Source: a virus. From it: a stretch of 23,834 bases of DNA. The notes beneath the pieces were generated by a model, which saw nothing but the letters and a program-made list of their open reading frames with translations, had not been told where the DNA came from and ran no database searches. A program made the translations under genes and the position numbers. Of the stretch, positions 9,457 through 23,458 are shown piece by piece (position 1 is the stretch's first letter; every line of letters starts with the position of its first letter). The stretch covers positions 1-23,834 of IMG/VR virus record IMGVR_UViG_3300027659_000210. One strand, given 5' to 3'.

Positions 9457-10173
9457 ATGTCATACTTGAATACACCAATACCCATTATTGATGGGTATAT
9501 TCGAGGTAACTTTTTGAGAGATCAAAAAGATTCCTTTGATAAAAAATTCCCATGTTTTATATTTGGATTTACTTCTATACCTGGTCAAGCACCTTTGTTT
9601 CATTTTGCAATGGAAGATGGTGGTTTATGGTGGAGAATGCCAATACACGCTTTTTGTTGGAAAGAAGATGCACCACAACAGGAACTTGACGAGCTTGTAC
9701 TTTGGGATTCATTCTCGTATCATGTAAGCGTGACACAGTTTCCGTACTTGAAGAATAAGGTTTGTGGATTTATTTCTCGAAGGAGAACTGAATACAAAGG
9801 AAAGTATTTGTTTACATTAGATTGGGCAGCAAGTACAAATTCTGGCGATACTGACTATTTATTCTCGGAATATCCATCACAACATAAGTGCGGACACGTG
9901 ATAATGATGGATAACGGTAATTTTGCCATACAACCCAATAATCGTTTCAGTCTCCACGATCCGTCATTCACTACCAAGGAAAAACCTGTGATAGATAGAA
10001 TGTACAATAACACCCTATGGACTGCGGAGCGAAATCATAGATGGGTTACACCAGATACGGAAAACATGAATTATGATCACACGGATTTAGATGCGGGTGA
10101 ATCTAATGAAGAACGATCAAATCACTATAACGAGAGGTTAAATGAAAACACGAATCAGTCATTTAAACGGTGA
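9457..10173 (+). CDS. Conserved hypothetical protein of unknown function
   Basis: This 238-residue protein is rich in aromatic residues (for example GGLWWRMPIHAFCW and LVLWDSFSYHV). It reads as a soluble beta-rich domain over residues 1-190, followed by a polar Asn/Glu/Asp-rich tail. I recall similar proteins next to replication genes in T4-like marine phages, but know of no assigned function. ATG 9457 lies 20 bases after the helicase stop. The gap contains TATTTATA and no Shine-Dalgarno sequence, so the start codon is less secure than others. Its last 32 bases overlap the next gene in a different frame. Given the position it may be transcribed with the replication operon. Confidence 0.75.
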   Translation: MSYLNTPIPIIDGYIRGNFLRDQKDSFDKKFPCFIFGFTSIPGQAPLFHFAMEDGGLWWRMPIHAFCWKEDAPQQELDELVLWDSFSYHVSVTQFPYLKNKVCGFISRRRTEYKGKYLFTLDWAASTNSGDTDYLFSEYPSQHKCGHVIMMDNGNFAIQPNNRFSLHDPSFTTKEKPVIDRMYNNTLWTAERNHRWVTPDTENMNYDHTDLDAGESNEERSNHYNERLNENTNQSFKR

Positions 10174-10723
10174 ATATCAAAGCGATACAGCAGCCGATTT
10201 ATGTGAGGTGTTTTGTGAACCCGAAGGAGAGACCTATCGGGAATTATTTGAAGCGGGTTGGCTTCCAACCGAAAAAGGTGAGTGGTATCAGTCAAGGTCA
10301 TCGAGGGTTAAAATAGAACCTATTTCCTCAAGGCGCAAATACCAACTCAAGAAAATAAACGTAAGCACTACTGGCGATTATCAGAAGATATTTGAGCAAT
10401 CAAAATATCTTTACGATGAAAAAGCGCAGCAATTTTTAGATACCGTATTATCTTATAAACACGAAATATATTATTTTAATAATGATGTGTTTGGTGTTCT
10501 AAATTGGTTTGATGAAATACCATATTTCTCATTGGTTTTTGGTGGTAAATTAAAACGCGATGGAGTAACTACATTGTCCTGTTATTATTTTATTGACAAA
10601 CTCGTTGGAAATGCATATCCTTATCTTTACATAAGTGAGTGGTATGAACAATTCTATTATAAATCACACTATCCTAATTTTGAGTGGTGGGATGGCCAAA
10701 AATGGAATGAAGGTAATTTTTAA
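10142..10723 (+). CDS. Putative aminoacyl-tRNA-protein transferase-like (Ate/Bpt) GNAT-fold protein
   Basis: This 193-residue protein resembles bacterial arginyl/leucyl-tRNA-protein transferases, which add an amino acid from tRNA to a protein N-terminus in the N-degron pathway. The order of segments matches the family: YRELFEAGWLPTEKGEWYQ (32-50) corresponds to the Y-x-x-L-x-x-x-G-F-R-R-S-G...Y segment; RSSRVKIEPISSRRKYQLKK (52-71) to the basic P-x-R-I...S-x-S-Q-x-R stretch; and YPYLYISEWYEQFYYKSHYP (158-177), ending in a WWDGQKW motif, to the P-Y-L-Y-L-G-Y...M-x-Y-K-x-R-F segment. The central Cys-rich part of Ate/Bpt enzymes is shortened; only C-x3-C (Cys21, Cys25) remains. It is shorter than usual (about 230-250). 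ATG 10142, after GAGAGG, overlaps the previous gene by 32 bases. A plain GNAT or FemX-like transferase is the main alternative. Alignment was by eye from memory. Confidence 0.5.
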   Translation: MKTRISHLNGEYQSDTAADLCEVFCEPEGETYRELFEAGWLPTEKGEWYQSRSSRVKIEPISSRRKYQLKKINVSTTGDYQKIFEQSKYLYDEKAQQFLDTVLSYKHEIYYFNNDVFGVLNWFDEIPYFSLVFGGKLKRDGVTTLSCYYFIDKLVGNAYPYLYISEWYEQFYYKSHYPNFEWWDGQKWNEGNF

Positions 10724-10754
10724 AAAAATTAAAAAAAACCAATTTTTTTATCTG

Positions 10755-10790
10755 AAACGGTATAGTTATTGCTATACCGTTTTGTTTTTT
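10755..10790 (+). terminator. Rho-independent terminator
   Basis: AAACGGTATAG (10755-10765) pairs perfectly with CTATACCGTTT (10772-10782) around a six-base TTATTG loop, followed by TGTTTTTT. It lies 32 bases after the stop of the Ate/Bpt-like gene and before the ribonucleotide reductase leader. It probably ends the operon that starts at the 5029 promoter. No consensus promoter is visible between it and 10836, so the reductase may depend on read-through or on a phage-specific promoter. Confidence 0.9.
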
Positions 10791-10835: not shown

Positions 10836-12689
10836 ATGAATATTAGTAATAGAATTCTTTCTGAGATAACAGTATATATGAAATACGCTCGTTACTTACC
10901 AGAAGTGAATAGAAGAGAAACTTGGAATGAGTTAGTAACAAGAAACAAAGAAATGCATCAACGCAAATATCCTAAACTAGTAGATGAAATTGAAAATGTC
11001 TATAAGTTTGTTTATGATAAAAAGGTACTTCCATCGATGCGTTCACTTCAATTTGGTGGTAAGCCAATTGAAATTTCACCAAATAGAATTTACAACTGTG
11101 CGTATTTACCAATTGATGATTGGCGTGCATTTGCTGAAGTAATGTTTCTTTTACTTGGTGGTACAGGTGTAGGTTATTCAGTTCAAAAGCACCATGTAGA
11201 ACAACTTCCTCCAATCCATAAACCAAAATCTAAAGAACGTCGTTATCTTATTGGCGATTCAATTGAAGGTTGGGCTGATGCGGTTAAGGCACTACTAAAG
11301 TCTTATTTCACAGGTGGTTCTTCTATTCGATTTGATTATTCAGATATTCGTCAGAAAGGTGCTCGTTTAATTACAAGTGGTGGTAAAGCACCTGGTCCCG
11401 AACCACTTAAAATTTGTATTGAAAAAATTCGTGCTATTCTTGATTTGAAAGGCGATGGTGAACAACTTTCACCGATTGAAGTACATGATATTGTTTGCCA
11501 TATTGCAGACGCAGTTCTTGCAGGTGGTATTCGTCGTGCTGCTCTCATTTCTCTTTTCTCCGCAGATGATGACGATATGATTTCATGTAAGTTTGGAAAT
11601 TGGTGGGAATTAGATCCGCAACGTGGTAGAGCAAATAATTCTGCCGTTCTTCTTCGTAGTAAAGTATCTGAAGAATTCTTCAAATCACTTTGGAAAAAAA
11701 TAGAATTATCTAACGCAGGTGAGCCGGGTATTTATCTTTCAAACGATAAAGATTGGGGAACAAATCCATGTTGTGAAATTGCACTTCGTCCTTTCCAATT
11801 TTGTAACCTTTGTGAAGTAAATGTATCAGATGTTGTTGACCAAGAAGATTTAGAAGCAAGAGTTCGTGCTGCTACATTCATTGGTACACTTCAAGCGGGT
11901 TATACAGACTTCCATTATCTTCGCCCTATTTGGCAAAGAACAACTGAGAAAGATGCTCTACTCGGTGTTGGTATGACAGGTATTGGTTCAGGTAAAGTAA
12001 CGAAACTGGATTTAAAAGCAGCAGCTAAAGTATCAAGAGAAGAAAATGAAAGAGTTGCTTCTATACTTGATATTAATAAATCTGCTCGTACAACAACAAT
12101 TAAACCAGCAGGTACATCATCTTTAACTCTTGGGTGTTCATCTGGTATTCATGCATGGCATAATGATTTTTATTTACGTAGAGTTCGTGTTGGAAAGAAT
12201 GAATCAATTTATTCTTATCTTGCAACCAATCATCCAGAGCTGGTTGAAGATGAATACTTCAGACCACATGATACTGCGGTAATTGGCGTTCCACAAAAAG
12301 CACCAGAGGGATCGATTCTTCGTAGTGAATCACCATTACAATTATTAGAAAGAGTAAAATTGTTTAATCAACAATGGATAAAACCAGGACATAGAACTGG
12401 TATGAACACTCATAATATTTCTGCAACAGTCTCTATACGTGAACACGAATGGGATGCGGTAGGTAATTGGATGTGGGAAAACAAAGAACATTTCAACGGA
12501 CTTTCTGTTCTTAACTATGATGGTGGCTCGTATATTCAAGCACCGTTTGAAGACATTTCAGAAGAAAAGTATAATCAATTACTAGAAACACTACACGATG
12601 TTGACTTATCAAAAATTATAGAAATGGATGACAATACTGATTTGTCTGGTGAATTAGCGTGTGCAGGTGGTGCGTGTGAGATAAAATAA
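10836..12689 (+). CDS. nrdJ: Adenosylcobalamin-dependent (class II) ribonucleotide reductase
   Basis: This 617-residue reductase converts ribonucleotides to deoxyribonucleotides using a thiyl radical made with adenosylcobalamin. It resembles the monomeric Lactobacillus leichmannii triphosphate reductase type. Expected residues are present: redox Cys88 (NRIYNCAYLP), thiyl Cys312 with Glu314 (TNPCCEIALRP), redox Cys323 eleven residues later (FCNLCEVN), the phosphate-binding TIKPAGTSS loop, and the C-terminal swinging pair Cys609/Cys614 (CAGGAC) that takes electrons from thioredoxin. It is shorter than the Lactobacillus enzyme (about 740). ATG 10836 follows GGAG at 10825-10828. No radical-generating partner subunit is seen or needed. 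The enzyme depends on the host for cobalamin. The thioredoxin at 20156 is a plausible reductant. Confidence 0.93.
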   Translation: MNISNRILSEITVYMKYARYLPEVNRRETWNELVTRNKEMHQRKYPKLVDEIENVYKFVYDKKVLPSMRSLQFGGKPIEISPNRIYNCAYLPIDDWRAFAEVMFLLLGGTGVGYSVQKHHVEQLPPIHKPKSKERRYLIGDSIEGWADAVKALLKSYFTGGSSIRFDYSDIRQKGARLITSGGKAPGPEPLKICIEKIRAILDLKGDGEQLSPIEVHDIVCHIADAVLAGGIRRAALISLFSADDDDMISCKFGNWWELDPQRGRANNSAVLLRSKVSEEFFKSLWKKIELSNAGEPGIYLSNDKDWGTNPCCEIALRPFQFCNLCEVNVSDVVDQEDLEARVRAATFIGTLQAGYTDFHYLRPIWQRTTEKDALLGVGMTGIGSGKVTKLDLKAAAKVSREENERVASILDINKSARTTTIKPAGTSSLTLGCSSGIHAWHNDFYLRRVRVGKNESIYSYLATNHPELVEDEYFRPHDTAVIGVPQKAPEGSILRSESPLQLLERVKLFNQQWIKPGHRTGMNTHNISATVSIREHEWDAVGNWMWENKEHFNGLSVLNYDGGSYIQAPFEDISEEKYNQLLETLHDVDLSKIIEMDDNTDLSGELACAGGACEIK

Positions 12690-13713: not shown

Positions 13714-14130
13714 ATGTTAACCAATTCAATTCTTAAACGAGAGAATGATTTGTTTAATGAACTCGTGAACAGTTTATCTCGTCCAGTTAGTTTACTACAC
13801 ACAGGAAAAGGATTAAAATCATCCGTTGATTTTAATAATTGGACACACGCTATTGCCAATGAAAACTCATTGGATATTTATGCAGAAGTTCCTGGCTTCT
13901 CAAAGGAAGACATTAGTATTACTGTAAAAGAAAAGCTGCTTCGCATCGAAGGTAAAAGAAAAGGAGTAAATCAATTTGTTACAGAGAAAACTCTAAAATT
14001 GAATTATGAACTTTCTAAACCATACGATGTAAAAGGTATTACCGCATCAGTTGAAAATGGTATTCTTCATGTTTCTGTTCCAAATATAAAACCGGCAGAA
14101 TCCGAAGAAGTAACTATTAAAATTAAATAA
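13714..14130 (+). CDS. hsp20: Hsp20/alpha-crystallin small heat-shock protein
   Basis: This 138-residue chaperone has a short variable N-terminus (1-43) and an alpha-crystallin domain: SLDIYAEVPGFSKEDISITV (52-71), LRIEGKRK, and the signature NGILHVSVP (115-123, corresponding to G-x-L-x-V-x-x-P). It ends VTIKIK, which contains the I/V-x-I/V tail that links dimers into oligomers. Such proteins hold unfolding proteins without ATP; T4-like cyanophages also carry them. The strong AGGAGG site (13700-13705) suggests high expression. It is followed by a terminator at 14149, so it closes the small-gene block that begins at 12744. Confidence 0.92.
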   Translation: MLTNSILKRENDLFNELVNSLSRPVSLLHTGKGLKSSVDFNNWTHAIANENSLDIYAEVPGFSKEDISITVKEKLLRIEGKRKGVNQFVTEKTLKLNYELSKPYDVKGITASVENGILHVSVPNIKPAESEEVTIKIK

Positions 14131-21122: not shown

Positions 21123-22628
21123 ATGTGCGGTATAATAGCAACCGTCGGTTATACTAAAACTGACGTTGATAATATGTTGGAAACCATCGCTCACCGTGGT
21201 AAAGATAACCGTGGTATAAAAGAATTTTCTTGGGGCGATAGAAAAGTTATACTTGGACATAATCGTCTTGCCATTAACGATACTTCTGCCGCAGGTAATC
21301 AACCGATGGAATGGGAAGGTATTCACTTAGTAGTTAATGGCGAAATATGGAATTATCCTGAACTAAGAAAAGAATACGAAGAAAGGGGATATAAGTTTAA
21401 ATCAAACTCAGATTCAGAACTTATACTGTTTGTGTACAAAGAACAAGAATTGAAAAGACTTAACGGTATGTTTTCTTTTGTTATTTGGGATAACGGAAAG
21501 CTAATTCTTTCACGTGATTGGGTTGGTAAGTTACCACTCTATATTTTTAACAATAACACTTACATTATTGCAAGTGAAATAAAATCTATTGTTGAACAAT
21601 TACCGAACGCTGACATTAAGTTTGTACCGAAAAATTCTTTGATTGAAATTGATCTGAGTACCGATAAAATAATAGTTCATAAAGATTACTATTTTAACTT
21701 TTCAAACGAAACAACTTCACCCGAAACACATGAAGAATGCAGTACAACAACGTACAATCTACTGGAGAACGCGGTAAGTAAAAGATTGTTATCTGATGTA
21801 CCTATTGCAACTTCGTTGTCTGGTGGGATTGATTCCGCTGTTATAACGTATTTGTTATCTACTAAAATACCAAACTTAAAAGCGTATACAATTGCTTTTG
21901 ATGAAGATTCACCTGACTTGAAATACGCAAGAATAGTTGCAAAACATTTAGGTGTTCAATTGGTTGAAGTTTTAGTTCCAAGAAACGTGGAACTCTTGAA
22001 GCAAAGATTTTTAGAATCAATACGAGTTATTGAATATCCATCTACAGTTCAAATGCAAGTTGGTATTCTACAATCGTTTATAGCAGAACAGATGGCAAAG
22101 GATGGAATAAAAGTTGCGTTTAGTGGTGAAGGATCTGATGAAGCATATGGTTCTTATGGAATGATACGGATGTTTAGTAAGAAGCCAGACTGGTCGGATA
22201 TTAGAAAGAAATTATTTGAAAAGCAATACTATGGTAATTTATTACGCGGTAATACTGTTTTCATGTATTATGGAACAATAGAATTACGTTGCCCGTTTTT
22301 CGATATTGATTTTTTAGATTACACTACTAACTTAACGAACGAATTTTTATCTGATAAATCTCAATGGAAACTTCCACTTGCAGATGCATTCAGACCGTAC
22401 TTGCCTAAAGAAGTTATTGAACAAGAAAAACGTGCTTTTCAAAAAGGTACAAACTTCAAAGGGTTTATTGAAGATATAATTCTAAATGATAAAGAAATAA
22501 ATTTTCGTAATAGAAAAAAGATGCTTCATGTAATTGGTGATAACTTTGAAAAGATTCATGGATTTTCACATAAGAAAATGAAGGGCGAACTTATTGGTAA
22601 TAATAGTGGAATATTCAAATGGATTTAA
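21123..22628 (+). CDS. asnB: Glutamine-dependent asparagine synthetase (AsnB family)
   Basis: This 501-residue two-domain enzyme makes asparagine from aspartate, ATP and glutamine. The N-terminal glutaminase domain has catalytic Cys2 (MCGI), Arg48 (GHNRLA), NGEIWN (72-77) and Asp97. The C-terminal synthetase domain has the pyrophosphate loop LSGGIDSAV (232-240) and SGEGSDEAYGSY (334-345). All residues I can check for ammonia production and aspartate activation are present, so it looks active. It is slightly shorter than E. coli AsnB (about 554). AsnB-like proteins also amidate other substrates, and the context with a thymidylate-synthase homologue and a PLP enzyme leaves that open. The gene starts one base after the previous stop and overlaps the next by 10 bases, so the three are probably translationally coupled. 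Confidence 0.92.
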   Translation: MCGIIATVGYTKTDVDNMLETIAHRGKDNRGIKEFSWGDRKVILGHNRLAINDTSAAGNQPMEWEGIHLVVNGEIWNYPELRKEYEERGYKFKSNSDSELILFVYKEQELKRLNGMFSFVIWDNGKLILSRDWVGKLPLYIFNNNTYIIASEIKSIVEQLPNADIKFVPKNSLIEIDLSTDKIIVHKDYYFNFSNETTSPETHEECSTTTYNLLENAVSKRLLSDVPIATSLSGGIDSAVITYLLSTKIPNLKAYTIAFDEDSPDLKYARIVAKHLGVQLVEVLVPRNVELLKQRFLESIRVIEYPSTVQMQVGILQSFIAEQMAKDGIKVAFSGEGSDEAYGSYGMIRMFSKKPDWSDIRKKLFEKQYYGNLLRGNTVFMYYGTIELRCPFFDIDFLDYTTNLTNEFLSDKSQWKLPLADAFRPYLPKEVIEQEKRAFQKGTNFKGFIEDIILNDKEINFRNRKKMLHVIGDNFEKIHGFSHKKMKGELIGNNSGIFKWI

Positions 22629-23458
22629 TACAAACACCGATTGAAGAATATGAACTCAACGGAAAGAAAGTTTGGGTTAAGCGTGATGATTTAGTTGGTG
22701 ATGGAATAAATTATCCAAGGTGGGCAAAGATAGAAGGAATTAGACAGATTCTAAGAAGCCCTGCTGTTGATAAAAGTAAACCACTAACACACCTTTCAGT
22801 ATACGGAAGTTGGACAGGTTGGGTTTTATCTGGACTTTGTAAAGAAGAAGGTATAGAATTTATTTCTTCTTATCCAGAAACAAAGAAGTTTCCTCCAAAC
22901 TTAATTGAAAAAGTATTGGGTAACGGTGGAAAATTAAATCCACTTAAACCAAACATAATGGCAATACTTAACAATCGTGTAAAGAAACAAGCAGCAGAGA
23001 ATGGATGGCAAATGTTACCATACGCATTCAATCATCCAATGTATATTGCATACATGGGTAGTAGAATGAAAGAAGTATTGGCGGATAATGACTTTGACCA
23101 CTTAGTTGTTTCTATGGGTAGTGGTGTAACGTGTTCTGGACTTATAACTTCATTCTTACATTATACAGATTGGCGAGATGTTGTTAGTAACAGAAGGCAA
23201 GTTCATGGTATTACAATGTCATCGATAAAATCAACAAGAAAAATATTAGAACAAAATGGAGCAGGTGGTAATAATAATATTCACATTTATAAATCGCCAT
23301 TTGCTTTTGACGATATGATGTTAGATTATTCAGTACCGTTTGATTGTAATGAATTTTGGGATAAAAAAATGTGGTTCTGGTTAGAAGAAAACATTGGGAA
23401 ATTAGACGGAAAAGTATTATTTTGGAATATTGGTGGTTCATATTTACAATCGATTTAA
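22619..23458 (+). CDS. PLP-dependent enzyme of the ACC deaminase / D-cysteine desulfhydrase type
   Basis: This 279-residue fold type II PLP enzyme has VWVKRDDLVGD (18-28), then NYPRWAKIEGIRQIL, with Lys37 as the likely PLP Schiff-base lysine where the family has G-G-N-K-x-R-K-x-E. VYGSWTGWVLSGLCKE is in the position of the usual Q-S-N-H segment. A phosphate-binding SMGSGVTCSGL and a C-terminal WNIGGSYLQ resemble the T-G-G ending. The Q-S-N-H motif itself is not conserved, so the substrate probably differs from both named enzymes. It is shorter than the family norm (about 330). Its ATG lies inside the end of asnB (10-base overlap). Possible jobs are amino-acid or sulfur metabolism, or a step in nucleotide modification; the sequence does not decide. 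Confidence 0.78.
   Translation: MDLIQTPIEEYELNGKKVWVKRDDLVGDGINYPRWAKIEGIRQILRSPAVDKSKPLTHLSVYGSWTGWVLSGLCKEEGIEFISSYPETKKFPPNLIEKVLGNGGKLNPLKPNIMAILNNRVKKQAAENGWQMLPYAFNHPMYIAYMGSRMKEVLADNDFDHLVVSMGSGVTCSGLITSFLHYTDWRDVVSNRRQVHGITMSSIKSTRKILEQNGAGGNNNIHIYKSPFAFDDMMLDYSVPFDCNEFWDKKMWFWLEENIGKLDGKVLFWNIGGSYLQSI

Follow-up and report, generated by a model that had tools for sequence, protein, structure and literature searches.

Aminoacyl-tRNA-protein transferases, known as cellular enzymes, take the amino acid carried by a tRNA and attach it to the N-terminus of a protein, in most cases labeling that protein for degradation. Whether phages may have an equivalent tagging chemistry of their own is the question raised by a 193-amino-acid protein, P0001, encoded in a viral record of 23,834 nucleotides (IMG/VR record IMGVR_UViG_3300027659_000210; this whole stretch is referred to as the window). 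The question was addressed computationally, at the level of the gene, its family, its homology, the predicted fold, the motifs retained and lost, and the overlap with a neighboring gene. The P0001 family is a previously unannotated set of viral proteins that are distantly related to the aminoacyl-tRNA-protein transferases and reduced in comparison with them. A search of the open-licence literature yielded no account of such a transferase encoded by a phage.

The P0001 Gene and Its Viral Relatives

An earlier note, made from the sequence alone, had singled out an open reading frame and four motifs in a phage setting. The frame is real (Table 1), and all four motifs are found in the protein (YRELFEAGW, residues 32–40; RSSRVKIEPISSRRK, residues 52–66; PYLYISEWYEQFYYKSHY, residues 160–177; WWDGQKW, residues 182–188). 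Between close relatives, dN/dS is 0.09–0.14, which indicates purifying selection. The phage setting is also supported. The neighborhood resembles that of T4-type phages, with genes for a RecA-like protein, a Pol I-type nuclease, a DnaB-type helicase, and ribonucleotide reductase. P0001 lies between the partner gene and the reductase gene (at 10836), ahead of which an intrinsic terminator ends the two-gene unit of partner and P0001. Judged by the helicase, the nearest isolate is Microcystis phage Mel-JY01 (61.5% identity), in which the next large gene directly follows the helicase, with neither a P0001-type gene nor the partner between them. Elsewhere in the window, positions 13714–14130 encode a small heat-shock protein (Hsp20-like, judged by eye from the sequence). 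In addition, a gene for a glutamine-amidotransferase/asparagine-synthetase-like protein (21123–22628; beginning MCGIIATVG) overlaps one for a PLP-dependent threonine-dehydratase-like enzyme (22619–23458; phrog_7093), a pair that is unusual in a phage and possibly forms a small amino-acid pathway.

Table 1. Positions of the two-gene unit, the parts of P0001, and the terminator in the window.
Feature	Position	Strand	Details and evidence
Upstream partner gene, 238 aa, phrog_3704 family	9457..10173	+	Shares 32 nt with the ATE-like gene
Viral ATE/Bpt-like gene P0001, 193 aa	10142..10723	+	ATG at 10142, stop at 10723; profile homology to Ate/Bpt; ATE1 proteins are the top structural matches
N-terminal β hairpin and helix, residues 1–39	10142..10258	+	Model strands 2–13 and 18–26, helix 32–37; A6 alignment
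Basic helix region SSRRKYQLKKI, residues 62–72	10325..10357	+	Helix 63–70 in the model; role of helix αf from PMC10115844
GNAT-like core and C-terminal YLYI..WY..F.YK....W..W motif, residues 107–190	10460..10711	+	Model, fold search, and alignments
Intrinsic terminator	10753..10784	+	14-pair stem and T run; −18.7 kcal/mol, z −5.2

Searches of Pfam, PHROGs, NCBIfam, and the PDB with the single P0001 sequence yielded no meaningful or significant family match, a tblastn search of phage isolate records yielded none, and P0001 matched no PADLOC defence family. A weak match to phrog_1127 (E 0.028), common to no other family member, was rejected, as were PDB matches to antibody chains, which reflect compositional Tyr/Trp similarity. 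Relatives were gathered by fetching viral contigs via the neighboring genes, followed by a HMMER search. Homologs at the same genomic place range from 71% down to about 23% identity, and profile scans enlarged the family (111 stretches in one scan, 37 in another). It comprises 69 distinct viral proteins of 178–216 amino acids, 46 of them at <92% identity. At one locus (L079:2246–2365), a second fragment resembling the C-terminal part of the family lies directly 3′ of the intact copy, which may reflect a tandem duplication of part of the gene.

Profile Homology to the Bacterial Ate/Bpt Proteins

The earlier note had proposed that the order and spacing of the motifs parallel those of Ate/Bpt, with a trimmed Cys-rich middle, and both parts of this proposal hold at the level of profiles. 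When viral profiles were compared with five bacterial Bpt/Ate sequences using hhalign, the alignments were collinear and nearly full-length (176–193 columns; E 7.3e-6 and 1e-5); the profile of P0001's own clade aligned with Bpt more weakly (E 0.0015). The viral Y..L(F/L)..G(W/F) lies opposite the LN..L...GF of Ate/Bpt, (S)x(S/C)R(I/V) opposite C..SVRI, the (K/R)(R/K)K run opposite SxxRR, and YLYI...F.YK....W opposite VYLGYW....KMGYK......W, such that the GF/GW, S-x-R, basic run, Y-K, and terminal Trp are common to both families. The basic loop and the Y-K segment, whose alignment the earlier note had proposed as a check, each have an Ate/Bpt counterpart, and the Cys-containing YRPxCxxCxxC segment is reduced in the viral family. 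In none of six comparisons did any of 100 column-shuffled decoys match the real score (real 29–44, decoy maximum 16–24), and reversed profiles scored 14–18.

The best independent test of homology is provided by blind searches of entire bacterial records with the viral profile. The sole match was an arginyltransferase in a 288-kb Acinetobacter baumannii record (E 4.6e-6), an ATE_C protein in a 602-kb Bernardetia plasmid (E 1.6e-5), and an ATE_C-type gene in a 5.3-Mb Bernardetia genome (E 6e-4); in a Pseudorhodobacter record, Bpt was weakly matched (E 0.04). Three of the six bacterial records tested gave no match, although Bpt is encoded there. Divergent family members also match Pfam ATE_C (best 20.9 bits, E 5.8e-4; E 2.9e-4 in a whole-contig search). 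The P0001 family is almost certainly homologous to the ATE/Bpt branch.

It nevertheless differs from standard bacterial Bpt/Ate proteins (Pfam ATE_N and ATE_C), which are longer (about 230–271 amino acids) and carry C-x2-C-x2-C and F/Y-x-D/E-P motifs that the viral proteins lack. The curated Pfam cut-offs (25 bits for ATE_C, 27 bits for ATE_N) are not reached, P0001 itself giving no match and the best member falling short of the ATE_C threshold. Because the Cys/zinc-finger and F/Y-x-D/E-P motifs are missing and these cut-offs are unreached, the family is best described as a Cys-less viral sister of Ate/Bpt that falls outside the current curated definitions.

In the search for a cellular donor, a pattern scan of genome contigs from 84,980 species found no relative, and a scan of 395 Bacteroidota genomes found one weak, broken match (E 0.007, five internal stops). 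The latter, sampled scan scored only eight candidates per genome and missed the Bernardetia ATE-like gene that a fuller scan found, so the absence of a cellular relative is not proven. Like the viral family, the Bernardetia-type proteins are without the tight C-x2-C-x2-C cluster of Bpt, and their C-terminal 56 columns match the viral profile well (E 1.6e-5; YKxxFPNxxxxDxxxW), but they have a longer middle, SLGT and DP motifs, and an additional DUF952 domain. One of them (L018:1560–2621) carries only a DUF952 annotation; it is a fusion to DUF952 of an ATE_C protein without the Bpt Cys cluster, and it has relatives in Cytophagales and a Planctomyces metagenome-assembled genome. A Vibrio-type Bpt query, used solely to fetch database sequences, matched phage records only in Acinetobacter phage MD-2021a (CAKLQH020000030.1 and CAKLQF020000028.1). 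What these two records encode is a true bacterial arginyltransferase; it matches the query at the same identity as does the A. baumannii gene adjoining aat and rimI, and the records are probably host sequence.

Predicted Fold and Retained Motifs

A single-sequence AlphaFold model of P0001 was poor (pLDDT 41.5) and was set aside, whereas the model built with a 38-sequence alignment reached a pLDDT of 88.9 and a pTM of 0.82. In a PDB fold search with the latter, the best five matches were human and yeast ATE1 proteins (E 2.4e-4 to 3.6e-3, probability 1.00), followed by the acetyltransferase VipF, the peptide synthases Sbb17/Sba18, L/F-transferase, and FemX. TM-scores to ATE1, normalized by query length, are moderate (0.46–0.60) and the alignments are gapped, as expected for a much shorter relative. 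The predicted model has the ATE1-like fold, a GNAT core with a mixed sheet, and shares the basic helix with eukaryotic ATE1 (8tzv, 8e3s, 7wfx, 7tif), from which the viral proteins differ in lacking a zinc finger and a variable domain and in having less than half the length. FemX, L/F-transferase (Aat), and Sbb17/Sba18 are likewise GNAT-fold aminoacyl-tRNA users and match the model more weakly (E 0.01–0.04), but they have no sequence match to the viral family, and ATE1 is clearly nearer. The comparison of Ate/Bpt with FemX/GNAT folds suggested in the earlier note thus places ATE1 above plain acetyl-CoA-dependent GNATs, and the idea of an Ate/Bpt relative survived it.

The viral proteins keep the GNAT core, the basic helix, the S-x-R motif, the Y-K pair (with Lys174 invariant), and the C-terminal Trp188, and the Y-K, S-x-R, and Trp positions are strongly conserved across all clades. 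In yeast ATE1, a Lys/Arg patch of helix αf enters the major groove of the tRNA acceptor stem, and the substrate-binding domain is supported by a four-Cys zinc finger (PMC10115844). On the profile alignment, residues 62–72 of P0001 are the putative counterpart of helix αf; in each of the 36 aligned members, the 24-residue stretch that follows S-x-R contains 4–8 Lys/Arg residues. Residues 1–39 correspond to the start of the ATE substrate-binding domain, with a Cys pattern that is not conserved. The "altered cysteines" of the earlier note therefore describe a real change but understate it: the 36 aligned members have no conserved metal-binding Cys set, four of them have no Cys at all, and no counterparts of Bpt Cys63, Cys66, and Cys69 are present in the viral alignment. 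The F/Y-x-D/E-P motif is also absent from the viral proteins. S-(L/Y/F)-G-(T/K) is retained in divergent clades, and the clade of P0001 keeps just the Gly. In addition, inspection of the members of the A6 alignment revealed no CoA-binding loop (R/Q-x-x-G-x-G/A). Together, the motifs kept and lost and the missing CoA-binding loop suggest a transferase that uses tRNA but is altered on its acceptor side.

The Overlapping Partner and Possible Functions

The ATE-like gene overlaps its partner in all 63 distinct cassettes that contain both genes, by 1–56 nt, and this overlap in most lineages suggests that it is probably translationally coupled to the partner. A phrog_3704 gene is adjacent in 146 of 158 ATE-like matches in the fetched loci, counts that are not independent since some loci share a contig; of the remaining 12, five lie directly after the helicase, six at contig ends, and one is the second fragment in L079. 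The pair recurs in several genome contexts, and in isolates including Synechococcus phage S-SM1 and Pelagibacter phage HTVC008M the partner occurs without an adjoining ATE-like gene. The partner (phrog_3704, T4-GC 171) is labeled in many cyanophage and pelagiphage records as "PurM/phosphoribosylaminoimidazole synthetase" or "ferredoxin." It matches neither PurM nor ferredoxin, nor any other Pfam family or solved structure in the PDB, and these labels appear to be misannotations passed on from record to record. A conserved third gene (about 236 amino acids) overlaps or abuts the ATE-like gene in 23 of 68 distinct downstream regions (for example L239:6634–7338; also in L073, L103, L226, L257, L260, L263, and L265); those examined all belong to the divergent clade. 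Its product has many invariant Cys and Trp residues, gives a flavodoxin-like impression by eye, and matches no known family. In L239, the trio lies on the strand opposite to most neighboring open reading frames.

We favor the reading that P0001 is a pared-down viral member of the ATE/Bpt branch that lacks the zinc finger, and is probably an aminoacyl-tRNA-dependent transferase working with its phrog_3704 partner; the homology, the predicted fold, and the motifs suggest tRNA use and transfer activity. The basic helix would clasp a charged host tRNA by its acceptor stem, with the aminoacyl-CCA end lying in the GNAT cleft, and an amine of a protein or peptide would receive the amino acid. Given that the substrate-binding domain has lost its metal-binding part and that the genes overlap and are probably coupled, the partner is probably the acceptor itself or helps in choosing it. 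A compact, Cys-less, virus-borne family of this kind would reveal the parts of the ATE fold that are sufficient for tRNA use, and would offer a testable route for protein tagging by phages or for the building of modified peptides during infection.

What such a transferase would be used for can be viewed in several ways. The known role of the homologous Bpt/Ate enzymes suggests classical N-degron tagging, in which Leu, Phe, or Arg is added to N-termini and host ClpS/ClpAP degrades chosen proteins during infection. Of the control genomes, that of the cyanobacterium Synechococcus elongatus encodes ClpS, and Microcystis is infected by the isolate closest in its helicase. None of the 15 long phage contigs of relatives encodes ClpS, although ClpS of the host could serve. 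With the zinc finger and F/Y-x-D/E-P parts of Bpt/Ate gone, the acceptor may not be a classical N-degron, and this role is conceivable but somewhat improbable. A comparable, limited likelihood attaches to a small pathway in which the PurM-like partner, the third gene in one clade, and the ATE-like enzyme would carry out a tRNA-dependent modification, its target being a peptide or small molecule and its purpose not protein degradation. The constant overlap with the partner, the recurrence of the pair, the conserved third gene, and the GNAT-type aminoacyl-tRNA peptide synthases Sbb17 and Sba18 among the structural matches are consistent with this, but the searches assigned no function to the partner or the third gene, and the flavoprotein impression was gained by eye. 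A dedicated phage pathway of two or three genes (the ATE-like enzyme, phrog_3704, and sometimes the third protein), adding an amino acid to a phage-specific acceptor and unrelated to N-degron proteolysis, is a tentative and rather unlikely extension.

Loss of the Cys and F/Y-x-D/E-P motifs, and of S-L-G in the clade of P0001, would permit altered or absent activity, and thus a tRNA-binding or regulatory pseudo-enzyme that retains the ATE fold without catalysis; that Y-K, S-x-R, and Trp are so well conserved, and that selection is purifying, suits a working active site instead, which makes a pseudo-enzyme unlikely. An ordinary acetyl-CoA-dependent GNAT acetyltransferase, already disfavored, is very improbable. 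GNAT families are weakly matched in Pfam (best E 0.02), but they rank below ATE_C for the same member; similarly, VipF and all other acetyltransferases in the fold search rank below ATE1, and in place of the CoA-binding loop the divergent members have the ATE-type S-(L/Y/F)-G-(T/K). Beyond the GNAT fold, the preferred tRNA-dependent transferase has a functional analogy, and no closer relation, to the peptide aminoacyl-tRNA ligases (PEARLs), which also add amino acids to peptides in a tRNA-dependent manner. PEARLs are derived from ATP-GRASP enzymes, not from GNATs (PMC11117183), and their addition is C-terminal rather than N-terminal.
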